DNA of 27,535 nt from a virus: the IMG/VR virus record IMGVR_UViG_3300028388_004274, positions 1 to 27,535 of that record, one strand, 5' to 3'. Shown in pieces: positions 2 through 16,463 of the stretch. The notes under the pieces were generated by a model that saw only the letters and a list, made by a program, of their open reading frames with translations, was not told where the DNA came from and ran no database searches. Both the position numbers and the translations under genes were made by a program. Each line of letters begins with the position of its first letter. Positions within the stretch are counted from its first letter, which is position 1.

Positions 2-1327
2 GCCCAGATGTCGGTGCCGTCTATTGTGGTGGACAGCGACACCCAGATCAGCGTGACCAGAGCGGCGGACCCCGACGACGGTGGTTCTGCTATCACCGGC
101 TACGACATTCGTATCTCGACAGACGAAGTGGTGTGGACGGAAAGTGCAATGACTGGCCCGTCTGAGGTATTCACTGCGCTCGCAACTGGAACCTTGTACT
201 ACGTCCAAACTCGGGCAAACAACGCCATTGGCAACGGTCCTTGGTCACTGTCTGCTTCGGCTACACCAGCAGCCGCATTCGTCCCTACTCTCACATTGGA
301 TGCGTGGGACGAAAATACCGATACCGCCGACTTGACCAGCAATGTTTCTGGGCCGGGCCATTACATTGTCCACACGTTAGGCACGACCTACACCGCAGTA
401 CAGATCGACGGTGCAACGGTAGCCGGTGACATACTTCTTGCCGGGTCGGCTGGTGAGTTCATTGCCGATGTACCTGCACAAGACCTCGTGATCGACACCA
501 CGCCGCTGACTGACGGAACACAGTACGAGTTGTCTGTTGTAGTGGATTCCGGCCCCAACGGCTATACAAACGTTGTGCGTCAAACATTTACGGCAGGTGC
601 AGGTTACACCGAAAACCCGATCACACTTAACGGTACAAGTTACCTGCAAGGCACATCTGCGATACCTAACACCTACAACCGGCTCGTGTTCTTTGCTTCG
701 ATGTCCGCGTCGTCAGATACTCGCCAGAACCTGTGGTCAACCGCCGGAACGAGTGAAGGACTTTACGCGAGTTTTACCACGTTGGCAGGCAATGTGCAGC
801 CACGCCTGAACCTCTCAAACACATTAGGTGGAACCGCTGCTTTTATAGGTGGCGGACCTATTGCGGTAAATGAGCGGTTCCATATCTGGGGCACCGCGTG
901 GATACAGGGCACGACGATCAACGCGGAATTGTACGGGTGGGACGAGACTAACACGACACCAACCCTGTATGGCGCTGTGTCGGAAACCGTTCCGGCAGGC
1001 GGGTTCTTCAATCTGGAAACACAAGCGTTCCGGTTATTTAGCCGTTCAGACAGCGTGAGCCATATTCCGTCTGGCACATTCTACCGCGCTTCTTTATGGG
1101 GTGACGCTGACGGCGAGGCATCCGGTCGTCGAATTGACTTCGGGGTAGCGGGCAATCGTGACTTGTTCGCCAACGGGGCAAGCCTAGTGGACCCCACCAC
1201 TGCGCAAACGGAGTTCTCAGCCATGACGCCGATCTTCGACGTGTACGGTCCCGCCAGCCGCCTCGGACTTACCCCGATCACTCAGCCCGCTGGCACAATC
1301 GACATCAATCCCGTGGGAGGCTTCTAA
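2..1327 (+). CDS. Virion surface protein with FnIII and lectin-like domains (5' end cut by window)
   Basis: The frame is open to the left edge, so the ATG at position 8 is probably internal and the gene starts outside the window. The first ~88 visible residues fit a fibronectin type III fold: an 'ITGYDIRIS' strand, 'YYVQTRANNAIGNGPWS', then an Ala/Pro linker. Residues ~90-200 are a second beta-rich domain. Residues ~205-400 look like a concanavalin/laminin-G-type sandwich ('PITLNGTSYLQG', 'FFASMSAS', 'FYRASLWGD'). FnIII and lectin-like domains are common on phage virion surfaces, where they bind glycans. It overlaps the next gene by one base (TAATG at 1325-1329), so the two are probably translated together. 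Because connector genes follow, a head-decoration role is as likely as a tail-fibre role; this is inference. No catalytic motif is visible. Confidence 0.7.
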   Translation, partial: AQMSVPSIVVDSDTQISVTRAADPDDGGSAITGYDIRISTDEVVWTESAMTGPSEVFTALATGTLYYVQTRANNAIGNGPWSLSASATPAAAFVPTLTLDAWDENTDTADLTSNVSGPGHYIVHTLGTTYTAVQIDGATVAGDILLAGSAGEFIADVPAQDLVIDTTPLTDGTQYELSVVVDSGPNGYTNVVRQTFTAGAGYTENPITLNGTSYLQGTSAIPNTYNRLVFFASMSASSDTRQNLWSTAGTSEGLYASFTTLAGNVQPRLNLSNTLGGTAAFIGGGPIAVNERFHIWGTAWIQGTTINAELYGWDETNTTPTLYGAVSETVPAGGFFNLETQAFRLFSRSDSVSHIPSGTFYRASLWGDADGEASGRRIDFGVAGNRDLFANGASLVDPTTAQTEFSAMTPIFDVYGPASRLGLTPITQPAGTIDINPVGGF

Positions 1328-3555
1328 TGCCTTTAACACTTCGTAAATCAGTGTCACTGCCAAGTATGGGCACTGTCCCCGTTACCGTGGAGGTACAAGA
1401 TGGGGCTATCGCACCCTGCGCCGCAGTTCTAAAAGCCGGAATAACCGGACTTGATACTTCATTTACCGATGATTTTTGGCCGGTACTAAACGAGACTTAC
1501 ACCGGCATTTTCAACCCGTGGAGACACGGCCTGTTTTTCGAGTGGACGTTCCCAGAACTGACGGGCAATTTTGAAAAACCGCGCTTGGTCAAAGAGCACG
1601 CGGCTAAGGGGTATTACATCGGCTCCGAAATTGCGGTTGTATTTCCCGAGCAAGATGATCGTGTTCCGGGGTACACGGATTACACTTGGCAGTTGAAGGT
1701 GACCGACCCTTACGATGGCAAGGTCGGCACTGCAAGTGGCACGATCCGGGTGTTCAATCCGTATACCAGTGCAACACGAATCGTTCTTGTAAACGTAGAC
1801 GGCGATAACGGCGTGGGCGCGTTTGAAGCCTTCGACCGTACTAATTTGCCGGGTGTGACAATAACTGAGAGAAATCTTGGCCCCGGCGAGCGTTTAGACA
1901 ATAACAGCACCATCATCACTGATTACGCGGCGGAAGACAACGTTCGGTGGCTGTTGAAAGGATACGACACCACCGGAGGAACACTGAACCCAACTTATGA
2001 CGTCCGTGTCCAGATTAACGATACTGCTTTCGGGTCAAATCCGTTCTTCGGAGCGTACGGCACAGGTAAAGTTCGTCTTGTTCGGTCTAACAACAGTGAT
2101 CCATGTTACGCTGCGCAGGGTAACACGGATGTGACGACCATGTGGGGACTACGTGTAACTCGGCAAGAATATATTGGACCTGTTATTCCAGAGACCACTA
2201 TTCTGATTGAAACAGGAGAGTTTTCCAACGTCGAGGCAGCGGTGTTCAATATGGACGCAGCAGGCGGTGTGTGGTATCTAATTCATGATTGTGCGGTTCG
2301 TCGCAACACCGGTTCTTTTGTGTTTAAGCAAGGTGGCGGCAGCACTAGCCCCTTCCGAGTCACCGCATCTGAATGCGAAATGACGGATGCCGTAGCGGAA
2401 TACTCTTTCCTAATCGGGGACAATGACTTAAGTATAAACGGAGGATTTCACGCCATTGGCTGTGCGTTTATTGATGCTACAGACAAGCTCAAACCAGATT
2501 CAGCCCACCAGTCTATTATTCGGTGTAGTCGTGTAGACGAAATCATCATCACGAAGTGTGAAGTATTTTTCAACAAGATATCGGGCTCGCAGTCTTCCGG
2601 AAAGCTTGGAACCACGAGCAAGAACGGCGTGTCCATTAACGTGACTCTGAATCGCATCGAGGCGTCCCAAAACGGCTGGTCATTAGGCTGGACGAACGAT
2701 TTCTTCGTCGAAAGCAACGCTTATATCGGCTTCAATCTGTTCATCTGCCCGCCATACCAGCAAACTGTTTTGTATCTGTCGGGGGAGGGCGTGACTTTCG
2801 TGAACAATTATGCCTTTCACCCGGCGTGGGGTCTTTCTGATGGGTCCGGGGACTCAATTTCTCAAGGAGACGATAACTTTTCGTTACGAAATTTTGTGTC
2901 TTGGGAGTTCAATAGGGGACGCAGGGGACCGCGAATTGGTTTCGTTGGGGCACCGAATACAATTGCCGGGAATACTCTTGTATCTTTGCTAACCTCGGCC
3001 CAGCATGGTACCAGCCTTAACAGAGACGTTTTGCCGGAAATAATTACCGTGGTTACCCTGCGTGACAATACCGTAGGATTAACGTTCGAAGACGGCTCTA
3101 CCATAACAACCACCACCCCCACACCCCCGACGACGGACATAACACGGTTCAACAGTACCAATGTTGTCCACGCTCCAAGATATACTGCGGAAGTAGGCTC
3201 TCCGACTGTGGATCGTGACCCAATATACGATGGCTTGATTGCCGACGATACGGTGTCGTCTACCGGTGAGCCCGTTCTTGTGGATGTGGACGATGCACCG
3301 CTTACGCCCAGAACAACAACGCTGCGCCTTTCTGACCCTGATAACGGGTTCCCGGCTGGGGTTAATACCGAATTGGATATATCCAGTGTGGAGGTACCAG
3401 CACCGTATCCAAGAAGTGGATCATCCGCTGACCGGGCCGGTCGGGCGGTCTACCCGCACCTCCCCCCTCTTGATTTCCTGCTTCGACCTGTAGGCCGGAA
3501 CAAGTCTGACGGTGTGCTGGAAGTTGAGAATGGAGGTAACTACGTATCTCAATAA
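1327..3555 (+). CDS. Putative virion appendage protein with predicted beta-helix
   Basis: A 742-residue protein. Residues ~60-140 resemble a PKD/Ig-like beta-sandwich ('GLFFEWTFPE', 'YTWQLKVTDPYDG', 'SGTIRVFNPY'). Residues ~150-600 are rich in short Asn/Gly-punctuated strands such as 'IETGEFSNVEAAVFNMDAA', 'IHDCAVRRNTGSFVF' and 'INVTLNRIEAS', the look of a right-handed parallel beta-helix as in tailspikes and pectate-lyase-like proteins. I see no catalytic residue set, so enzymatic depolymerase activity is not claimed. It starts at the ATG of a TAATG overlap with the FnIII/lectin gene, so the two are likely one translational unit and partners on the virion. It is the last gene before a ~100-base gap that carries a promoter-like sequence. 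Confidence 0.6.
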   Translation: MPLTLRKSVSLPSMGTVPVTVEVQDGAIAPCAAVLKAGITGLDTSFTDDFWPVLNETYTGIFNPWRHGLFFEWTFPELTGNFEKPRLVKEHAAKGYYIGSEIAVVFPEQDDRVPGYTDYTWQLKVTDPYDGKVGTASGTIRVFNPYTSATRIVLVNVDGDNGVGAFEAFDRTNLPGVTITERNLGPGERLDNNSTIITDYAAEDNVRWLLKGYDTTGGTLNPTYDVRVQINDTAFGSNPFFGAYGTGKVRLVRSNNSDPCYAAQGNTDVTTMWGLRVTRQEYIGPVIPETTILIETGEFSNVEAAVFNMDAAGGVWYLIHDCAVRRNTGSFVFKQGGGSTSPFRVTASECEMTDAVAEYSFLIGDNDLSINGGFHAIGCAFIDATDKLKPDSAHQSIIRCSRVDEIIITKCEVFFNKISGSQSSGKLGTTSKNGVSINVTLNRIEASQNGWSLGWTNDFFVESNAYIGFNLFICPPYQQTVLYLSGEGVTFVNNYAFHPAWGLSDGSGDSISQGDDNFSLRNFVSWEFNRGRRGPRIGFVGAPNTIAGNTLVSLLTSAQHGTSLNRDVLPEIITVVTLRDNTVGLTFEDGSTITTTTPTPPTTDITRFNSTNVVHAPRYTAEVGSPTVDRDPIYDGLIADDTVSSTGEPVLVDVDDAPLTPRTTTLRLSDPDNGFPAGVNTELDISSVEVPAPYPRSGSSADRAGRAVYPHLPPLDFLLRPVGRNKSDGVLEVENGGNYVSQ

Positions 3556-4283: not shown

Positions 4284-4302
4284 CACCGAGCCCGACTCGG
4301 TG
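4284..4302 (+). other. Perfect 7-bp hairpin before the phoH-like gene
   Basis: CACCGAG (4284-4290) and CTCGGTG (4296-4302) pair perfectly around a 5-base loop in the gap upstream of the PhoH-like gene. The downstream arm contains the alternative GTG start codon at 4300. No T-run follows directly, so it is more likely an RNA processing, stability or attenuating element than a strong terminator. Confidence 0.45.
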
Positions 4303-4332
4303 AACAATCTCTCTTGCTTAAAGGATAGGCGA

Positions 4333-5136
4333 ATGACCCACGACGGGGACTCGGATAACCGCCCAAAATCCGTTAGACGCCAACAAAGGAAACAGGCTAA
4401 GGAAATCAGACAGTTACGTAGAAATCCAAAGCCGATAGAAGCCAGAACGACCACCCAGAAGGAGTATATCTGTAGTCTTCACGAAAATGAACTAACGTTT
4501 GGTGTAGGACCCGCCGGTGTTGGAAAGACTTACGTACCTGCGCGTGTTTTTGGTCAGATGATTTCATCTGGAGATATCGATAAAATATACCTGTCTCGCC
4601 CGCCCGTAGCAAAATCAAGGCACCGAATGGGATTTCTACCCGGCACTGAAGTAGAAAAAACAGCACCGTGGATTGCCCCCATATATGAGGGGATAAAAGA
4701 TTCTATGTCCGTAAGCGATTTTGATCGGCTGTGTAGAGAGGAACGAATACATGTTGTTCCGTACGAATTTATGCAAGGCCGTACTTTTAGCAACGCCGCG
4801 TGGATCGTCGATGAAGCAGAAAATCTTGATCTGGACGACTTCTATATCACATTGACCCGCCAAGGCGAGGGTCTCCGCGCAGCTATTTGTGGGGATATCC
4901 AGCAGGCCAGAATAAACAATAGTGGGCTAAAGACTGTAATCAAAATGGCTGAGAGTCAGGATATGGAGGGAATAGGTATTGTTCGATTTGGGGAGGAAGA
5001 CGTCGTAAGATCGCGTCAGGCACGGCAGTGGGTAAAAGCCTTTAACCGCATCCCCTTGTCATATGAATCAAATTGTGCTAATGATGCCGGTGAACCTAGT
5101 TTTGAACTTCCAGAATTTATCCGTCGGGACAACTAA
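4333..5136 (+). CDS. phoH: PhoH-like P-loop ATPase
   Basis: A 267-residue PhoH-family protein, starting at the ATG at 4333 because AGGA (4322-4325) lies 7 bases before it; the upstream GTG at 4300 is inside a hairpin. Residues ~10-36 are very basic. The family motifs follow in order: 'GPAGVGKT' Walker A (59-66), 'SRPPVAK' and 'MGFLPG' (89-104), 'YEFMQGRTF' (144-152), 'IVDEAEN' Walker B (158-164), and 'ICGDIQQ' (185-191). The family is ATP-binding and often suggested to act on RNA or in phosphate stress, but its role in phages is not settled. Finding it between virion and connector genes is unusual, since nucleotide-handling genes normally sit in early modules. TAATG overlap with the next gene. 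Confidence 0.92.
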   Translation: MTHDGDSDNRPKSVRRQQRKQAKEIRQLRRNPKPIEARTTTQKEYICSLHENELTFGVGPAGVGKTYVPARVFGQMISSGDIDKIYLSRPPVAKSRHRMGFLPGTEVEKTAPWIAPIYEGIKDSMSVSDFDRLCREERIHVVPYEFMQGRTFSNAAWIVDEAENLDLDDFYITLTRQGEGLRAAICGDIQQARINNSGLKTVIKMAESQDMEGIGIVRFGEEDVVRSRQARQWVKAFNRIPLSYESNCANDAGEPSFELPEFIRRDN

Positions 5137-7119: not shown

Positions 7120-8580
7120 TTGGCATTCGCTGATGCAAACCGCGCACAGATTCGATACATCGAGGAAACCACTTTCGGCACAACGCCGGGAAGCGGTACC
7201 ACCCGCGAAGTACGCTTAACTTCATCCTCTCTAACAGCGAGCAAAGAAACCATTGTTTCTGATGAACTCCGCTCTGACCGAATGGTTTCGGACATTGTTG
7301 AAGTTGCCGCTTCTTCGGGAGGTGATATTAACTTTGAATGGTCGTCCGGACCTCAAGACGAGTTTCTTGCGGCGTTCCTATTGAACGAGTGGACTCGCCC
7401 CATGACGATGGATTTCGTTGAGGGAATCTCTCTTTCGATTACGGCGAACAACGAAATCACCATCTATGGACGAGACGTAACGCCGCTTTTTGTTGTTGGT
7501 CGTCGCATCAAGTTGGCCGGATGGCCTACTTCTTCTAATGACGGTTACTACGAAATTGCCACGTCTACGACCAGCGGCGCAGACACCGTTATCACTGTTA
7601 CCGCCTCGACTCTTACCGCTGAAACGGGTGTGGCTGCGACGCGTGTTTTCGACGCCAACGATGTAATCATTTTGAACGACACAACCATCGCTCTTACGGC
7701 CTCCGGCCTAGACGGCGGGGGCGGCGATCCGTTTGCTGCCGCAGTGGCTGCGGGACAGTTTGTCCTTGGTCAGAAGATTTATGTAGACGTTGGCGTTTCG
7801 GCTGGTAACACTGGGTACTACACCGTCACGTCGGTTGGGGATGATGCCATTGGCCTTTCTCCGGCTCCGGCGGGCCTTGTTGCAGGGACCGCGACCACGA
7901 TAAAAGGCTCCCACGTGAGAAACTCCGCTATCGATGCCAACATTCAGCAGCGGTTTTTCTCTCTGGAAACGGCATTCCAAGACATCGGTCAGTACATGCT
8001 TCAGGACGGCATGGTAACAGGCACGTTCAATATGGAAATCGGCACCGGAGCTGTTACCGGAACCCTTGGGTTTCAAGGCCGCAGCACCACAATGAATCAG
8101 ACTACAACGCTGGGTGATGCTGGAACCTACACGGTTCTGGATTCTCAGCCGGGGGACGTTGTAAACGCAACCACCGACGTTGGAGACCTTGTCAAGGACG
8201 GAACACCGTTGTTGGCATGCATCCAGTCCATTTCGTTGAATGGCGAAGCCGGATTGCGTATGCAAAACTGTGTTGGAGAAAAATTCCCACGTGGTATTGG
8301 TACTGGCCGTTTCAATCTGACCGGGTCTATGACCGTTTACTTCGAGGATGAAGAACTGTTCGACGATTTCATCAATCACAGCACGACTTCTCTAGAATTC
8401 TCGATCACAGACCCAGAAGGTATCTCATACTTCTTCAAGATTCCTTCTCTGAAGATTTCTCAGAACGAAATCGCGCCCGGTGGTATTGACCAAGACGTGC
8501 TCGAAAACATCGAATTCACAGCGTTCCGCGATCCTACCACCGACACGATGTTTCAAGTAGATCGGTTCTCCCCGGCTTGA
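7120..8580 (+). CDS. Major tail tube protein
   Basis: A 486-residue tail tube protein with an RBS-supported TTG start. The N-terminal ~85 residues ('IRYIEETTFGTTPGSGTTRE', 'SDELRSDRMVSDIVEVA', 'GDINFEWS') and C-terminal ~210 residues ('FQDIGQYMLQDGMVTGTFNM', 'GRFNLTGSMTVYFED', 'DVLENIEFTAF') match the phage tail tube 2 family. Between them lie two similar ~50-residue beta units (about 124-175 and 213-263), each with 'VGRRIKLAG' or 'LGQKIYVDV' followed by '(N)DGYY' or 'NTGYY'. This makes it longer than many tube proteins. Subunits stack as rings around the tape measure; the extra units probably decorate the tube surface. Flanked by gaps on both sides, so expression may be set separately from its neighbours. 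Confidence 0.88.
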   Translation: MAFADANRAQIRYIEETTFGTTPGSGTTREVRLTSSSLTASKETIVSDELRSDRMVSDIVEVAASSGGDINFEWSSGPQDEFLAAFLLNEWTRPMTMDFVEGISLSITANNEITIYGRDVTPLFVVGRRIKLAGWPTSSNDGYYEIATSTTSGADTVITVTASTLTAETGVAATRVFDANDVIILNDTTIALTASGLDGGGGDPFAAAVAAGQFVLGQKIYVDVGVSAGNTGYYTVTSVGDDAIGLSPAPAGLVAGTATTIKGSHVRNSAIDANIQQRFFSLETAFQDIGQYMLQDGMVTGTFNMEIGTGAVTGTLGFQGRSTTMNQTTTLGDAGTYTVLDSQPGDVVNATTDVGDLVKDGTPLLACIQSISLNGEAGLRMQNCVGEKFPRGIGTGRFNLTGSMTVYFEDEELFDDFINHSTTSLEFSITDPEGISYFFKIPSLKISQNEIAPGGIDQDVLENIEFTAFRDPTTDTMFQVDRFSPA

Positions 8581-8590
8581 TTTTATCTAG

Positions 8591-8612
8591 TTAGGGGCGC
8601 AGACTCCCCTAA
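8591..8612 (+). terminator. Hairpin after the tail tube gene
   Basis: TTAGGGG (8591-8597) pairs with CCCCTAA (8606-8612) around an 8-base loop, 10 bases after the tube gene stop. It has the position of a terminator or 3' stabilising hairpin but no T-run follows. It may lower read-through from the tube gene into the chaperone and tape measure genes, or protect the tube mRNA. Confidence 0.45.
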
Positions 8613-8625
8613 TACTATACCCGAC

Positions 8626-8642
8626 ATCTCGTATATCGAGAT
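8626..8642 (+). other. Second hairpin, ATCTCG-TATAT-CGAGAT
   Basis: Six perfectly paired bases (8626-8631 with 8637-8642) enclose TATAT. The arms resemble the palindrome at 7061-7072, so the same factor might bind both flanks of the tail tube gene. It directly abuts a further palindrome. Confidence 0.4.
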
Positions 8643-8653
8643 TGCCATGGCAA
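8642..8653. repeat. 12-bp perfect palindrome TTGCCATGGCAA
   Basis: A perfect two-fold symmetric 12-mer between two hairpins in the 133-base gap after the tail tube gene. It contains an ATG in frame with the chaperone gene, but no RBS precedes it, so I read it as DNA or RNA structure rather than a start. Confidence 0.35.
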
Positions 8654-8688
8654 GGGGTGTGGTTAATTGTCGGGGTTGGCCACACCCC
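8654..8688 (+). terminator. GC-rich 9-bp hairpin before the tail assembly chaperone
   Basis: GGGGTGTGG (8654-8662) pairs perfectly with CCACACCCC (8680-8688) across a 17-base loop; the C-run continues to 8693, then TTTCCCTT. It is the strongest stem in this gap. The tail is C/T-rich rather than T-only, so it is a weak intrinsic terminator at best, or a barrier or processing site. The chaperone RBS (AAGG, 8703-8706) lies just outside it. Confidence 0.45.
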
Positions 8689-8713
8689 CCCCCTTTCCCT
8701 TCAAGGTAGTTAC

Positions 8714-9160
8714 ATGACTAAGAAAACTTCCGACGGCACTGTTAAGACAAACCTTCACGCCATTTTTGGGACCGACGAGCGTCTTGAAGAGGGCGGCGCT
8801 TGGGTCACTGTAAATGAAATATACAAGCTGCGCGTTAAGGTGCGGCGCCTGCGTTCCGATGCTGTGATAAAGGGGTATGACCGCGTCTCTCGCGAAGTGC
8901 TCGACGAAAAAAAGGTCCGTCGTCCAGAAGATTTGACGAACGACGAATCTATGGAAATTTTGAAGAGACAACTCGCAGAATACGTCATCGTCGATTGGGA
9001 AGGTGTCTATAATTCTAATACCGGGGAAGAAATTCCTTACTCCAAAGAAGCCGCGCTTGCAATGATGGAAATGAAAGATTTCCGTGAGTTCATATATCAG
9101 GCCGCGAGCGAGCGAGACGCTTTCCGAGAACAGGCGGATGAGGAAGCGGAAAAAAACTAA
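8714..9160 (+). CDS. Tail assembly chaperone, G-like (zero-frame product)
   Basis: A 148-residue product. I take the ATG at 8714 ('MTKKTSDGTVKTN') because AAGG (8703-8706) precedes it at 7 bases; the longer frame from 8648 would run through the hairpin region and lacks an RBS. The protein is acidic and helical, with the chaperone-like features 'WVTVNEIYKLRVKVRRLRS', 'YVIVDWEGVYNSNTGEEIPY' and a C-terminal acidic tail. As with lambda gpG it should bind the tape measure and keep it soluble before tube assembly. The gene ends in GAA AAA AAC TAA, where A AAA AAC is a slippery heptamer, and the -1 frame continues to the tape measure gene. The stop codon follows the slip site directly. Confidence 0.82.
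   Translation: MTKKTSDGTVKTNLHAIFGTDERLEEGGAWVTVNEIYKLRVKVRRLRSDAVIKGYDRVSREVLDEKKVRRPEDLTNDESMEILKRQLAEYVIVDWEGVYNSNTGEEIPYSKEAALAMMEMKDFREFIYQAASERDAFREQADEEAEKN
9151..9157 (+). promoter_or_regulatory. Programmed -1 frameshift site (A AAA AAC)
   Basis: The last two sense codons of the chaperone are AAA (9152-9154) and AAC (9155-9157), preceded by A, giving the canonical X XXY YYZ heptamer A AAA AAC. The zero-frame TAA follows at once. In the -1 frame, CTA ATA GAG TTC and onward is open to 9615. An SD-like AGGAAG (9141-9146) lies just upstream and could stimulate slippage. I see no convincing downstream hairpin. Position, direction and gene context match the conserved G/GT frameshift of lambda-type tails. 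Confidence 0.85.
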
Positions 9161-9615
9161 TAGAGTTCCTGCGTTGGACCCTGTCTTCCCCAGTAAATGC
9201 TGTTGAGAAAGACAAGTTCCTAGATTCTCTGGAAGCTGAAGACAATCCAAAGCTGAAAAAAATGCGCGAAATGCGTGCAGCCAAGGAAAAGTCCGGCGAA
9301 AAGCAGAGGAAAAAGCAGGAACAAGCCCCACACCTTTTCCCTGACTTACATTGGGTCTGGCGAGCTTACTGCTTTCTCTCAGACCAGCGAAGCGTAGGCC
9401 CTAACGGGCCTGTGCCGATAACTGTAGAAGCGATGGAATCCTACATTCGGATGTCCAATCGTTACGAGTATCCGTACGTTCAGCAGGTTATGAGGTTTAT
9501 CCCAATTCTTGATAGAGAATATTTGTCTGACTTCTATGAGAAGCAGAGAAAAGATATGGATAAACAGAAGAAAAAAGCAGAAAAAGTCGGCGTATCCCGA
9601 GGTAACAGGCGGTAA
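9157..9615 (+). CDS. T-like extension of the tail assembly chaperone (made by -1 frameshift)
   Basis: The -1 frame from the slip site codes for 152 residues with no stop, giving a fusion of about 300 residues (148 zero-frame plus 152). It begins 'LIEFLRWTLSSPVNAVEKDK', then a Lys-rich helix, then the T-like part 'HLFPDLHWVWRAYCFLSDQR', 'VPITVEAMESYIRMSNRYEY' and 'LDREYLSDFYEKQRKD', ending very basic. An internal ATG at 9262 would give only 117 residues; I see no good RBS for it, so the frameshift fusion is preferred. In lambda the T part of gpGT recruits the major tail protein to the tape measure complex. It joins the tape measure gene through a TAATG overlap. Confidence 0.82.
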   Translation, partial: LIEFLRWTLSSPVNAVEKDKFLDSLEAEDNPKLKKMREMRAAKEKSGEKQRKKQEQAPHLFPDLHWVWRAYCFLSDQRSVGPNGPVPITVEAMESYIRMSNRYEYPYVQQVMRFIPILDREYLSDFYEKQRKDMDKQKKKAEKVGVSRGNRR

Positions 9616-12600
9616 TGGCTGAAACACACGAACTTCGTTTGCGTATTAACGCGGCTGCCGCGCGTGCCGGTAGTCGCGAGTTCGTGGGGGCCATAGAGCA
9701 TGTAAAGCGTGCCGTACTGGAGCTTGAGCGCACAAGCGACGGTGCATTCAAGCGTCTGAGCAAAAATGCAAAGGACGCCGCAAAAGCAGCAAAGGTAAAC
9801 ATTAGTCCTGTAAATCGATCCACTCTGCGTGATATGGATCGGTTCATTCGGACACAGTCCCAAATAATTCGAAAGAATGCCGCTTCTCGGCGCGGTATAT
9901 CCGGCCTTCTAGAGGGCTTGTCGAATGTCGCGTCTGGATATGTTAATGCCAAATCTACCGGAGATGCATACGCGAACACGCTTCTTCGGATGAATGTTGC
10001 TTTGGCCCGTCAGGGCCAGCTCATCAAAACAACGGCAACCCCTATAGCAGCGCGCCCCGCGCGCCCCACATCAGGTGGGACCGATCCAACAATAGCGCGC
10101 AAGTCAGACGCTCTTGACCGCCAGAGAAATCTGGCTGTTTCCATCGCGGCGGCAATGCGTAAGGCTACCGAGGAAACTGCACGACTTAGCGAGCGCATGA
10201 GGCGTTTGGGGGATGTCAGGGGTATCGCGGAGCTTAATACGTCTCTCAACGTATTCCGCTCCCAAGTGGGCAGCGGAATAAATAGCGCGTCTCGTCTGCG
10301 GGTTGCGGTTTCTCAATTCGGTGATTCTGCCTCTAAAGCGAAGTTAAGCCTCATACAAATGGAGGGGGCAAAGCGCCGCTCTTCCGAAGCTGCTCGGGTG
10401 TTGGCGGCGCGAGAGCGTGACGCTTCTTCAGAAGCCCGTCGTCTAGAAAGGGAGATGCGATCTGTCGCTGGCGCGTCTAGCGCCGTTACGCAAGCTTTCC
10501 GCCGAGCTACGGGGTCCATGCGGGGGCTGGAAAATGCCTTTAGCGGTACCTATCAGATAGGCTCGGCCTTCCGCGTTCTTCTGGGAACGATCACCTTTGG
10601 TACGTTCATAAGAGAAATGTACCAAGCAGGCGCTACTTTGCAGCAATTCCGTGTAACCATGGAGGTTGCTACGGGGTCTATACAAGGTGCAGTAGCCCAG
10701 ATGGACTTCGTGGACGGCATGGCCCGAACGCTTGGTACCAGCCTTCGTACGGCGCGTGACGACTTCTCTAAATTCGCTGTTTCTGCGAGCTTGGCGGGAG
10801 TTGAAACAGCAACTGCCAGAGATATTTTTCGGTCCATTTCTCAAGCCATGACGGTTATGGGTCGAGGGGCGGAAGACCAGCGGCTTGCGTTCTTGGCCCT
10901 CGAACAAATGCTTTCGAAGAACGTCGTGTCTTCTGAAGAACTGCGTCGCCAGTTGGGCGAACGGCTACCGGGTGCCGTCAACCTGATGGCTCGTGCCGTC
11001 GGTGTCAGCACACAGGAACTGAACAAGCTCCTGAAAGCTGGTGCACTTATTTCTTCTGAAGTTTTGCCGAAGTTTGCACGAGAAGTTGACGCTGCGTTTG
11101 GTCCGGGTCTTTCCGCTTCCCTAGAACGCGCGCCCGCTGCGTTAGGACGTTTTCGCAATGAATTGGAGTTCTTCATGGCATCGGTCGCGGATGGCGGCTT
11201 TATGGATGCCATGGCACAAGGACTAGACGCCCTGACAGAAGCTCTTCGTTCAGAAGAAATAAATGCCGTGGCGAAAGCTCTGGGCGCCGGTATTTCCGAT
11301 CTAACCCAAATAGTCGTTGATTTTTCTAAGTCTTTTGTAGGCAATATTGAAACAATTGGTAGGGTAGCAAAGGCAGTAATTGGCGGTTTGATTGTCCGTC
11401 AGGCTATACTTATGGGCAATGCCCTGATAACTAGCAGCAGCAAATTCCTAATCGCTTTCAATCAATTGTCAGCCAGCATGCAGGCGAATACTGCGTCTAT
11501 CCAGACGAACAATGCTGCAATGACTGGTAATTCACAAATCCGTAGATTGTCTACTACGCAGATTTCTGCGGAGTCAGCCGCGATGGGCGTAAATACCCTT
11601 GAGCAGGGCCTTAACACGGCCTCTGCAAACGCAAACACCGTGGCTCAGACACGCCTTGGACGAGCTTTTACTTTTGCTGGCGGTTCTGCCGCCGCTGCTG
11701 GGCGCCGTCTTACGGCCATGTCTGTGATTTTTAGCGGACTGGCCGGTCCGTTGGGCCTAGCTATTACATCGCTCTCTTTGATTCCTGTACTGTTCTCAGA
11801 TACCGGAAATGCTGCTGACGAAATGGCGCGGAGATTGGACGCGGCTATTCGGCGTTCTGGGGCTTCCCTCGAAAAGTTTGAAAGACAGGCCGCTAAAGCT
11901 ACCAGCAGCATGCGGCTTCTACAGACTCTAAATGATATACGCACCCTAGAAGACGCGGTATCAAACTTTCGACGCACGTCGGAATCCGATATAAAGGCAC
12001 TGTCTGAGGCGTTCCGACTTCTTGATCAAAACCTGACGCTTGAGTTCAACAGGGCAGCGCCACAGACGCAGATTCTGGAATCTCTTTTTGGCACGGACGC
12101 CGTACTCGCGCTCAACAACATCAGTTCCGCCACAAAATCCACCATAAAAGATGTCATGGATGCGGCACTACAGGCCATCAATACTGGAAGGGGTTTCGTA
12201 AATCTTCGGGAACAGATTTCTAAGACCATTGCCTTAAATCCTTCCACCGAAAGCTTGCTGCGTCCTTTGATGGACATGACCGAGACACTGTATCTTGCGG
12301 AAGCTGGTACGGCAAGGCTGCGCATGGGCTTGGTCGATGTGTATGGTACCGCAGATGAGCGCCTCATCAAGTCTTTTGCCGATACTGCCCTTTCGGTGGT
12401 GAAGACCGGTGATGGTGTTGACGATTTGCGCCGACGCATGCAAAGCATGGCCGCAGATGCACCACATCTTTCCAAGCAGTTTGCTCAGGTTTTTGATGAA
12501 GTAGTATACGCACTAGAAAATAACATCGGCACTGACGCATTCGCGGCATCCGTAATTACGCTTTTTGATGCCAGCGTAAACTCAGTAGAGTCTTTGCGGG

Positions 12601-15600
12601 ATTCTGCGGCAAACGCAGAAGCAAGCGTTGTTTCTGCCTCTGATGGCATGTCTAAAGCCATAAACAATTTTACGGAAACGGTTCTGACAAACCACGCCGC
12701 AATGCGCGCGTTCGGCTCCGGCGTGGCAAGAGATATTGCTGAAATATCCAATCAGGTCACACAGTTTGAAGATTTTCAGGTTTCCCCGGATCGGGCAAAT
12801 GCCGTATTCTCTGGATTCCAGTTTCCCACGGAGCAAGCCAAGGCATTTAGTGAACAGATAATTGACCTGTTCTCAGCGCTTCCTGAAGGATTACAAACAT
12901 ATCAACAGCTTAACAACCTTTTTGCGCAATCAACAGGACCACATCCGCGTGGTGTTGAAGAATTTACAGACACGCTTCGGGACTCTTTGAAGGTATCGAA
13001 GGATACATCGTTCGGCTTGTCTGACTATATAGATAAGCTGGAAGAGTTCCGCGCCACCACAACGTCCGCCGCCGCAAGAGAGCACATCGACAACCTGATA
13101 AGGCAGGCTGAAGCATTGCGTGTGGCAGAAGTCGCGCAGCAGGCGGCAACGCACGCTCTCGAAGATACCACGGCAGCGATGCGTCAGTCCGCTGCCGGTA
13201 CGTCTGAGGCGACGTCTTCGCTGAAACTATTTTTGGACTTGTGGGACAAGGTAGGAAAGGTTACAGAAGATTCCCAGAGCACGCTAAAAGCGGCTATGAG
13301 AACCTCTTTTGAAGAATTCGATCTTTCTAGATTCTCTGGTGCTGATGCTGATGTAGCCGGATACTTCGCCAGCTTTGGTGAAGGCGGCGGGTTGGTTGCA
13401 GAAGCGCGTGAGCAAGTCGAAACTCTTCGGGAAGAGTTTAGAACATTTTCCAGCACTCCGGGGGCGGCGTTGCTTCCTCCCGGAGCACTGTCTGATCTAA
13501 AGAAGCAGATCGATGATCGGGAGCGGCAGATTGATCGCTTTGTTCGTCAGCAGGGAGTGATGCTGCGCGCGCAGAGCGCCGGAACAATTGATGCGTCAGA
13601 TAGCGCCCTGACAAAAGCCATTATGGAAGTGACAGATGCTCTTCCTGACTTCTCTTACGCAACACAGCGTGTTGTGGATGAGACCCTAAAGGCAGCAAAA
13701 GCCGCATCGAAGAGCGGTGGCGGGTTTATTGAACTCCGTGCAAAGATTGAAAAAGCACTGCTTGATACTCCCACTGCGCGCCCGCTTTTGGATCAGTTGC
13801 AGTCAGTAATAAACTATTTTGCGAATACTGAGGAATCGGCGGCGAAAGCCCGTATAAGTGTGAATGGACTTCTTGACAACACTTACGGAGACCGCTTGGC
13901 GGGTTCGTTCGCACGGCTAGGCGCCCGTGTTGTCACTGGCACTGCTTCGGTGGAAAAACTACAAGAAGAGTTTGACCGAATGGTTGATCAGGCGCCGCAC
14001 CTAGAGCAGCGTCTAAAAGCTATATTTGTTGAAGCAATGAAAGCGCTAGAGTCTGGGGACGAGGCTCTGTTTTTGTCGCGTGTGGTTAATGTTGTAGATC
14101 AGGCCGGTGCCCAAATGGCGCGGCTTCGCCGAGAAGCGCAACTAACCTCTGCCGCCGCCGATGATGCTGCCGTACGGTTCTCAAACGCTTTCCGGGATGT
14201 TACCGTCGCCATCACAAAGGCCACATCCGATGACGTTCAGATAAACACTGGCATTACCGATCAAGACATATTCTTGTTGAATCGGGCGACGGATGCGTTC
14301 AAAAAGCTCGACACGGCTACTGTAACCATTCAGGACGTCGCCAACGCACTGGAATCGACGACATTCCCGTCGCGTGCGGCGCGGGAATTTGCTTCGGAAC
14401 TTAGCGCACAGTTCTCCGCGCTTCCGCAGGCTCAGCGCAACTATGAAAACTTCAACAAGCTCCTAATAGAGGTAGGCGAGTCTTTCCCAGAAGTCGCTGC
14501 GACGGGGTTTGCCGATAGCCTGAGACAGCAGGTATTTGCGAGCAGTTCTGCCGGGACCGCAACCGCAGCGTACATACAGCAGTTAAGCGCCCTGCGCAAC
14601 GCTACACCTATTCCAGAACTGAAGGACTACATTCAGCGCCTTATGGACGCTGCGGAGAGAACGCGCGACGCGGATCGAGCCGCTGGTGAGGCAGAGGGCG
14701 CGGTTCGCGCCCTAGGAAACGCAGCAGCCCTTGCAGGCACACAAGCAGCAAGCGCGAGCGGAATGTTCAAGTCCATGGCTGAAGCGGCTGCTTCGGCCTT
14801 TGGCGCGGTGGCAAACATTCAGGCAGAGATCAGCACTTCTCTTAGCGACGCATCCAACGACGTTCTTCGCCAGATCGAGATAGCCGGAATGTCGGGGCGC
14901 GAGGCTGCCGTTGCGCAGGCACAAGATCGGCTTGAAAAGCAGATAGATGCCAAGATAAGATTGGCCCGTTCTGAGCTTTCAGATTTCGCTCCCGGCTCCG
15001 CCGAAGGTGCCGCCGCGCGCAGCCGCATTGCTGAGTTGGAAACTGAGCGAGAACGTATAACGGAAATAGCGAACCTATACGGTGTTCTGTATGATGTCCG
15101 CCAAGAAAATCAAGGCGGCGGGGGCGGCGCCAACGACTTGAACGAACAAGCCGCTGCACTTAAAACTTTGGTAGACGGGGTTAAGTCACACGTGCATGCT
15201 ATGCACGCCCAAAGTGCTGCTTATGCATTACTGGCATCCCGAACTACAAGCTCTGAAACAGCGGCTCAGCTTCTGGGTGAGGCTATGGCAAGCGGCGTGG
15301 AGCTTACACAGGCACAAACCACTGCGATAATTGAACAAGCCGAGGCGGCGGAGCTACTAAAAGAGAAGTTGCAGAGCTTGGCAAATGATCCGGTCAATGA
15401 CTGGATTAACAGTGTTCCAAACTGGATAGAAGCCGGACAGAAGATAGAAGTGGATGTTCTGGACAGTCTCAGTGATTCCATATCTTCATTTATCAAGACC
15501 GGAGAATTTGATTTCCGTTCTTTCGCTTCGTCTATTGTAGACACAGCGGCTGATCTGTTGGCCGATGCATGGGTTAAACAGCTTGTTTCTTGGATTGGAG

Positions 15601-16463
15601 GAAATACCTCCGGAGACGGTATCGGCGGGTTTGGCTTAGGGGCTTTCCTTGGTTTCGGTAATGGTGGAGGAAACGTCCCGCCTGCGAACATGGGAGAGGG
15701 CGCGCAAGTAAGCGCTGGTATCGTTTCCGGCGGACAGCAAGTAGCTGCTCTTCTGGAACAGGCACTTATTCGGGGCGGGCAGACTGCTGCTCAAAGCCTG
15801 TCTGCGTCGTCTGCTGCATCTGGAGAAATCGTATCCCAGAACGTCCAAATGGCGTCCATTCGTGCAGGCAGTTCAATATCTTCTAGCATGGCTGTCGGCG
15901 GCACAACTGCGGCATCCCAAATATCCACACAGATGGGCGCTTCAGGAAGCACGGTTGCCAACCAAATCTCAACCAAAATGCAGACCGCCGGTGCCCAAGT
16001 TGCGGCGCAGATAGGGGCGGCTACCGGCGGCGCTAAAAGAAGCGGTGGCTTCTTGGGGGGTCTTTTCGGTGGAGGTGGTATGGGTCCTCTAGGCGCCGTT
16101 CTGGGTCTGGGCGGGCTTTTGATGCCACTGATGGGCTCCACACCCAGAACATCTAGCGTACCTTCTTCTCCAAAAAAGACTCCCAATCAAATCTACTACA
16201 ATCCAGATAGTCTGCCCTCCCCGAACGCTGGGGGCTTGACTTCTGGGGCGCCTTCTGGTATGGGTGGCTCTATTGGCGGCAGTCCCGCAGAATCTGCGTC
16301 CAATGTATCTATTGGAGATATTTCCGTAACCGTAGAAGGCAATGTTTCGTCTACGGAAGACGCTCAGACTCTGGCGGCGGCGGTTGGACAACAGATCGAG
16401 ATGGTCGTCGATAGAAAACTTTCTGATGGTCTCCGTTACGGAGGTCGATTTAATCCGAGATAA
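9615..16463 (+). CDS. Tape measure protein
   Basis: The largest gene, 2282 residues. Residues ~325-510 carry the classic tape-measure domain: 'FREMYQAGATLQQF'-like start, 'TLGTSLRTARDDFSKFAVSA', 'SSEELRRQLGERLPGAVNLM', 'LNKLLKAGALISSEVLPKF'. Residues ~700-728 are hydrophobic. Two related helical segments of about 350 residues follow (about 845-1190 and 1350-1700). Residues ~1850-2060 are helical; 2080-2175 hold short Ala/Ser/Gln repeats then a Gly-rich hydrophobic stretch. The C-terminus 'LRYGGRFNPR' is typical of the family. At about 0.15 nm per residue the tail would be near 340 nm, before any processing. It sets tail length and is probably ejected ahead of DNA. Starts in a TAATG overlap with the chaperone fusion. 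Confidence 0.95.
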   Translation: MAETHELRLRINAAAARAGSREFVGAIEHVKRAVLELERTSDGAFKRLSKNAKDAAKAAKVNISPVNRSTLRDMDRFIRTQSQIIRKNAASRRGISGLLEGLSNVASGYVNAKSTGDAYANTLLRMNVALARQGQLIKTTATPIAARPARPTSGGTDPTIARKSDALDRQRNLAVSIAAAMRKATEETARLSERMRRLGDVRGIAELNTSLNVFRSQVGSGINSASRLRVAVSQFGDSASKAKLSLIQMEGAKRRSSEAARVLAARERDASSEARRLEREMRSVAGASSAVTQAFRRATGSMRGLENAFSGTYQIGSAFRVLLGTITFGTFIREMYQAGATLQQFRVTMEVATGSIQGAVAQMDFVDGMARTLGTSLRTARDDFSKFAVSASLAGVETATARDIFRSISQAMTVMGRGAEDQRLAFLALEQMLSKNVVSSEELRRQLGERLPGAVNLMARAVGVSTQELNKLLKAGALISSEVLPKFAREVDAAFGPGLSASLERAPAALGRFRNELEFFMASVADGGFMDAMAQGLDALTEALRSEEINAVAKALGAGISDLTQIVVDFSKSFVGNIETIGRVAKAVIGGLIVRQAILMGNALITSSSKFLIAFNQLSASMQANTASIQTNNAAMTGNSQIRRLSTTQISAESAAMGVNTLEQGLNTASANANTVAQTRLGRAFTFAGGSAAAAGRRLTAMSVIFSGLAGPLGLAITSLSLIPVLFSDTGNAADEMARRLDAAIRRSGASLEKFERQAAKATSSMRLLQTLNDIRTLEDAVSNFRRTSESDIKALSEAFRLLDQNLTLEFNRAAPQTQILESLFGTDAVLALNNISSATKSTIKDVMDAALQAINTGRGFVNLREQISKTIALNPSTESLLRPLMDMTETLYLAEAGTARLRMGLVDVYGTADERLIKSFADTALSVVKTGDGVDDLRRRMQSMAADAPHLSKQFAQVFDEVVYALENNIGTDAFAASVITLFDASVNSVESLRDSAANAEASVVSASDGMSKAINNFTETVLTNHAAMRAFGSGVARDIAEISNQVTQFEDFQVSPDRANAVFSGFQFPTEQAKAFSEQIIDLFSALPEGLQTYQQLNNLFAQSTGPHPRGVEEFTDTLRDSLKVSKDTSFGLSDYIDKLEEFRATTTSAAAREHIDNLIRQAEALRVAEVAQQAATHALEDTTAAMRQSAAGTSEATSSLKLFLDLWDKVGKVTEDSQSTLKAAMRTSFEEFDLSRFSGADADVAGYFASFGEGGGLVAEAREQVETLREEFRTFSSTPGAALLPPGALSDLKKQIDDRERQIDRFVRQQGVMLRAQSAGTIDASDSALTKAIMEVTDALPDFSYATQRVVDETLKAAKAASKSGGGFIELRAKIEKALLDTPTARPLLDQLQSVINYFANTEESAAKARISVNGLLDNTYGDRLAGSFARLGARVVTGTASVEKLQEEFDRMVDQAPHLEQRLKAIFVEAMKALESGDEALFLSRVVNVVDQAGAQMARLRREAQLTSAAADDAAVRFSNAFRDVTVAITKATSDDVQINTGITDQDIFLLNRATDAFKKLDTATVTIQDVANALESTTFPSRAAREFASELSAQFSALPQAQRNYENFNKLLIEVGESFPEVAATGFADSLRQQVFASSSAGTATAAYIQQLSALRNATPIPELKDYIQRLMDAAERTRDADRAAGEAEGAVRALGNAAALAGTQAASASGMFKSMAEAAASAFGAVANIQAEISTSLSDASNDVLRQIEIAGMSGREAAVAQAQDRLEKQIDAKIRLARSELSDFAPGSAEGAAARSRIAELETERERITEIANLYGVLYDVRQENQGGGGGANDLNEQAAALKTLVDGVKSHVHAMHAQSAAYALLASRTTSSETAAQLLGEAMASGVELTQAQTTAIIEQAEAAELLKEKLQSLANDPVNDWINSVPNWIEAGQKIEVDVLDSLSDSISSFIKTGEFDFRSFASSIVDTAADLLADAWVKQLVSWIGGNTSGDGIGGFGLGAFLGFGNGGGNVPPANMGEGAQVSAGIVSGGQQVAALLEQALIRGGQTAAQSLSASSAASGEIVSQNVQMASIRAGSSISSSMAVGGTTAASQISTQMGASGSTVANQISTKMQTAGAQVAAQIGAATGGAKRSGGFLGGLFGGGGMGPLGAVLGLGGLLMPLMGSTPRTSSVPSSPKKTPNQIYYNPDSLPSPNAGGLTSGAPSGMGGSIGGSPAESASNVSIGDISVTVEGNVSSTEDAQTLAAAVGQQIEMVVDRKLSDGLRYGGRFNPR

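Follow-up and report, generated by a model that had tools for sequence, protein, structure and literature searches.

The siphophage structural module carried on the virus contig analysed here (the window, 27,535 bases) contains a tail assembly chaperone gene that almost certainly uses programmed −1 ribosomal frameshifting as known from lambda G/GT, and this gene is preceded by a conserved, structured RNA leader. Frameshifts of the G/GT type are already known and widespread, and the site in the window adds one more; it is ordinary in kind, and follow-up is warranted above all for the leader. The module encodes connectors, the tail tube, the G/T chaperone, the tape measure protein, lambda-like minor tail proteins and a J-like fibre protein. 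The two-frame chaperone gene sits between the genes for the major tail tube protein (7120–8580; PF18906 Phage_tube_2, E 3e-40) and the tape measure protein (9615–16463, 2282 aa; phrog_9807, E 3.7e-103, PF20155 and PF09718), giving the gene order tube-G-T-tape measure. These genes, the signals around the slip site and the leader are all on the plus strand. Judged by sequence comparison, the Ruegeria and Rhodobacter phages DSS3P8 and RcXuper are relatives of this phage, and phiCbK is a more distant one; a search for near-identical phage DNA found none. Elsewhere in the structural region, a PhoH-like gene (4300–5136) lies immediately ahead of the connector genes, and a 742-residue open reading frame (1327–3555) had no match in a PHROG search.

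G, a short tail assembly chaperone of 148 aa, starts at ATG 8714, runs in the zero frame to 9160 and ends in AEKN. It matches phrog_313 (E 8e-21) and positions 4–140 of the 271 positions of the phrog_8233 profile (E 2.8e-16). The −1 frame extension T (9157–9615, 152 codons) matches positions 140–263 of the same profile (E 2.8e-14), back to back with the match of G, and scores above the cut-off for PF23812, the Pfam tail assembly chaperone TAC_18. Its stop codon at 9613–9615 overlaps the ATG of the tape measure gene at 9615. The slippery heptamer A AAA AAC (9151–9157) lies in phase at the end of G, with the zero-frame codons AAA AAC, in the context GAT GAG GAA GCG GAA AAA AAC TAA TAG. An initial annotation of this DNA had proposed a programmed −1 frameshift at an in-phase heptamer followed straight by a stop codon (TAA, 9158–9160), with a −1 frame that stays open over 152 codons until the tape measure gene and a chaperone fusion of about 300 residues as the product. 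All of these points hold: the two parts add up to 300 residues, both halves match phrog_8233, and homology and conservation lend strong support to the frameshift reading.

Most ribosomes would thus terminate at TAA 9158 and release G, and a minority would slip one base back with AAA AAC in the ribosome and re-pair on AAA AAA. The slipped ribosomes would then read CTA ATA GAG (LIEFL...) and append the 152-residue T domain, thereby producing GT (300 aa). If the analogy with lambda applies, G would coat the tape measure protein, the rarer GT would recruit tail tube subunits, and both would depart before the tail is completed. That slippage occurs, how efficient it is, when it takes place with respect to the stop codon in the A site and which roles G and GT play are predictions from the sequence and from this analogy.

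An in-phase heptamer alone means little, because G contains two further in-phase XXXYYYZ motifs, at 8869 and 8908; both precede 9142, the point from which the −1 frame is open. What lifts the slip site above chance is that its position, phase and open frame are conserved in 49 non-redundant relatives. Relatives were taken from phage genomes searched at the protein level with the fusion as query (37 records) and from profile searches of viral contigs (52 and 20 loci), and the 49-site set left out G-only matches whose slip site lies more than 40 nt from the stop codon. About five distinct distant relatives outside the set have a slip site 51–60 nt from the stop. The alignment of related phages that had been proposed as a check therefore bears out the heptamer and its frame.

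The adjacent stop codon and the flanking RNA

In the window, the TAA directly 3' of the heptamer is followed by an in-frame TAG (9158–9163). The zero-frame stop abuts the heptamer in 33 of the 49 sites and lies 3 nt away in another 8; in others it is found 12–24 nt past the heptamer. For comparison, the average distance for two sets of phage frameshifts is 26 and 36 nt (PRFect, PMC10885494). The conserved −1-frame leucine and the base that follows it constrain the zero-frame codon, and the expected frequency of an adjacent stop was therefore calculated from local CTN usage. Given this constraint, stop adjacency was observed 32 times against 14.2 expected and CTA at the start of the −1 frame 18 times against 5.0. 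The tandem in-frame stop created by the rare isoleucine codon ATA is also more frequent than codon usage predicts, in 8 of 23 cases against 2.2. All of these counts ignore shared ancestry among relatives that are not statistically independent, and their P values are optimistic. Tandem stops of this kind occur in the window and in L022, L033, L037, L048, L054, L076 and L080. Direct stop adjacency thus looks like a selected feature, and the stop may stimulate slippage, as the initial annotation had suggested.

The same annotation had suggested a second possible main stimulator, the Shine-Dalgarno (SD)-like AGGAAG. The motif is present (9141–9146); however, it ends 4 nt upstream of the heptamer, and the reported SD spacing for −1 shifts, as in the dnaX type, is 9–14 nt (PMC5009743). 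AGGAAG is therefore probably not a −1 stimulator. Across the family, complementarity to the anti-SD sequence peaks 3–7 nt upstream of the heptamer, which is likewise too close, and the SD was rejected as a candidate stimulator; this peak may merely reflect acidic codons (GAG GAA/GAC).

The initial annotation had seen no downstream structure, which is about right for the window within the first 90 nt and does not hold for its relatives. A possible weak fold at 9170–9280, in which UUGGA/UGUCUUC would pair with GAAGACA/UCCAA, has a z of −2.08 against dinucleotide shuffles; against codon-preserving shuffles, z varies with the length and offset chosen, from about 0 to −2.3, and is −0.8 over the first 90 nt. 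In the relatives, folding just after the heptamer gives a mean z of −2.92, compared with −0.3 to −1.3 elsewhere except in the overlapping stretch, and the signal is kept under shuffles that preserve protein and codon usage (mean z −2.62). The stem of the sphingomonad-phage clade begins 10 nt past the heptamer, and three of its pairs have changed on both sides in a compensatory manner. Most relatives thus have a selected downstream stem and the copy in the window is weak; over the first 90 nt, the window is an exception, as are L001 and L017, which are close to it. With stretches of 110–130 nt, these three reach a z of about −2 to −2.7, and a longer-range fold is possible there. A consensus fold sought for the window's own clade yielded only a 5-bp hairpin without compensatory changes and was discarded.

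These observations bear on how the shift would be stimulated. It is possible, though on the doubtful side, that the frameshift is mainly driven by the stop codon, with slow termination leaving AAA and AAC in the E and P sites and the fusion ratio following the supply of release factor. Such a mechanism would account for the adjacency of the stop and for the use of the rare codons CTA and ATA beyond codon usage, and it would fit the weak downstream stem in the window's clade. However, one sense codon precedes the stop in the 8 sites mentioned above, which include L001 and L017, the stop is more distant still in others, and most relatives possess a downstream stem; the early stop may merely be the tidiest end for G. 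For the −1 programmed frameshift in the window, efficiency could be low: the downstream fold is weak, the SD is badly spaced and, in E. coli, A AAA AAC is reported to slip far less readily than A AAA AAG (PMC5009743).

Heptamer classes and the start of T

The in-phase heptamer at the end of G is GGGAAAC at 27 of the 49 sites, AAAAAAC at 20, and AAAAAAG and GGGAAAG at one each. On a tree built from G and T with the slip codons excluded, the heptamer class has switched about ten times, and at least seven of these switches are forced by well-supported branches. Glycine and lysine are thus swapped and the XXXAAAC pattern stays, which argues for selection on slippage. Two very distant homologues found via the leader, L114 and L134, carry an in-phase T TTT TTG 6 nt before the stop. 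The seven consecutive As of the window (9150–9156) could also be read as a site at which RNA polymerase stutters, so that a mixed mRNA population would fuse G and T. Such transcriptional slippage is very improbable, since GGGAAAC, in which no single-base run exceeds three, occupies this position in more than half of the relatives, and the tree shows repeated switching between the two classes; the pattern they share is explained by tandem tRNA re-pairing and not by a stuttering polymerase.

The earliest possible start codon in T is ATG 9262, 35 codons in. The start-less first part (LIEFLRW...) is conserved among relatives; Leu1 and Leu5 do not vary among the 13 members aligned, and the T of a relative may offer no start codon until codon 85, a position within the conserved domain. 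A reading in which T is a gene of its own, with an internal start at ATG 9262 or further on, would match the ATG-started frame at 9262–9615 and the annotation of several relatives in deposited genomes. It is less probable still, because it gives no account of 35 conserved codons without a start codon or of the conserved slip site. With the T of the window as query, no relatives were found in bacterial genomes.

The frameshift indicates that T is mis-annotated in several deposited genomes of this phage group, where it is annotated from a later ATG or is absent. In addition, the variants described above, namely stop adjacency, presence or loss of the stem and two interchangeable heptamers, form a natural series on the efficiency of −1 frameshifting in Alphaproteobacteria.

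A structured leader upstream of G

The gap between the tail tube gene and G measures 133 nt and is conserved at the nucleotide level in relatives, with the layout CCCGACATCTYG, CGAGATYGCCATGGC, a hairpin with the loop TTGTCGGGG, CCCGACGAGG and the ATG of G. The structured leader itself spans 8618–8710 and is recovered by a covariance model built without the window (65.6 bits, E 6.3e-15). It consists of a segment, CCCGACA (8620–8626), which is complementary to the loop of hairpin P3 and could form a pseudoknot with it, followed by the hairpins P2 (TCTCG/CGAGA) and P2b (TTGC CATG GCAA; together 8627–8653), both with compensatory changes in relatives, and by P3 (8654–8688). P3 has 13 unbroken pairs, of which those nearest the loop are two A-U and two G-U, and is the longest stem around a 9-nt loop within the window (loop at 8667–8675). 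The ribosome-binding site of G, AAGG, lies at 8703–8706. In most relatives it is preceded by CCCGAC, a second complement of the P3 loop, which is degenerate in the window (CCCTTC).

Positions 1–10 of the P3 stem show two to five pair types each among 31 distinct leaders, and random re-pairing of P3 arms between leaders lowers the mean number of pairs, out of seven, from 5.8 to 3.1. The loop pairings with CCCGACA and CCCGAC are nearly invariant in Rhodobacter-type leaders, and in phiCbK-like phages the three loop and partner segments change together to CCCCGAT/ATCGGGG/CCCCGAT. A pattern scan that was blind to G found 20 distinct loci at which the hairpin has at least 8 pairs, and 18 of these sit directly upstream of a G homologue. 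The same covariance model also finds the leaders of sphingomonad-type phages, of one phiCbK-like phage and of the Citromicrobium phage. The leader is missing or goes unrecognised in several distant relatives (L009, L029, L032 and L034). An Rfam search of the window gave no match to the leader at E ≤ 1, the leader searched alone gave only weak, unrelated matches (E 1–8), and neither a sigma-70 promoter nor a terminator was found in it. Two reading frames happen to be open across the leader in the window; a coding role looks unlikely, since the gaps that distinguish leaders have lengths not divisible by three.

The best reading is that the leader is a cis-acting RNA that controls the translation of G through one loop, which pairs in two mutually exclusive ways. 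The long hairpin would present a 7-nt loop sequence, UGUCGGG or, in phiCbK-like phages, AUCGGGG, which would pair either with the upstream complement or with the copy that abuts the ribosome-binding site or, in some phages, flanks it. Of the two partners, the window retains just the upstream one in intact form. That the leader switches, what signal it responds to and in which direction it acts are proposals based on these pairings, and the leader probably sets the overall translation of the chaperone cassette. On balance, it appears somewhat more plausible than otherwise that 8618–8710 represents an undescribed class of cis-regulatory RNA that specifically precedes the G/GT genes of large, mostly alphaproteobacterial phages, acts as a two-state loop-pairing switch for G translation, is possibly sensed by a tail protein and complements the frameshift by which the GT:G ratio is set. 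No published description of such a leader was found in the literature searched, the coverage of which was incomplete. The ratio of the products of this gene is critical for tail assembly; if the leader is truly an RNA switch, it would add a second layer of control here and would be a new regulatory RNA in phages.

Some features around this element were also observed. Just upstream of the leader, TTAGGGG...CCCCTAA forms an extra hairpin (8591–8612), which is not a plain terminator since it lacks a T run; relatives have a hairpin of different sequence at this place. The leaders of L100, L129, L154, L012 and L010 contain an additional CCCGA-like motif 3' of the ribosome-binding site, and the loop complement is thus found on both sides of that site in some phages. 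The tetraloop of P2b (8642–8653 in the window) is self-complementary and varies as a unit in relatives (CATG, TGCA or CTAG, and GCGC in phiCbK-like phages), which makes loop-loop dimers conceivable.

Comparison with known systems

Both major heptamers were reported in 2012 by Gill et al., who described AAAAAAC in phiCbK and GGGAAAC in Colossus (PMC3556154). The Caulobacter phage phiCbK and its relatives encode homologous G and T proteins (gp93/gp94 in phiCbK) and have, like the window, A AAA AAC directly followed by TAA; the phiCbK site is annotated as 'programmed frameshift' in the deposited record. The phiCbK proteins are about 25–32% identical to those of the window, with a longer insert near the start of T. 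phiCbK also has a G leader, in which the loop and both partners have changed jointly to the set given above, whereas the second loop partner is degenerate in the window. The closest annotated relatives are DSS3P8, vB_RpoS-V10, RcXuper, RpAliso, DSS3_MAL1 and the Phaeobacter phage MD18, with 51–56% identity over the fusion. This Ruegeria/Rhodobacter phage group shares the gene order, the stop directly after the heptamer and the leader with the window; however, its heptamer is G GGA AAC instead of A AAA AAC, and in the deposited annotations G and T are split or T is omitted.

The G/GT system of lambda resembles that of the window in gene position, in the logic of two products and in a −1 slip near the end of G. 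The lambda heptamer and its distance to the stop codon differ from those of the window. In E. coli dnaX, a −1 shift likewise takes place on an A-rich heptamer; however, in dnaX the heptamer is A AAA AAG, the SD is well spaced and a stem-loop lies on the 3' side, whereas the site in the window has AAC, an SD that is too close and a weak stem.
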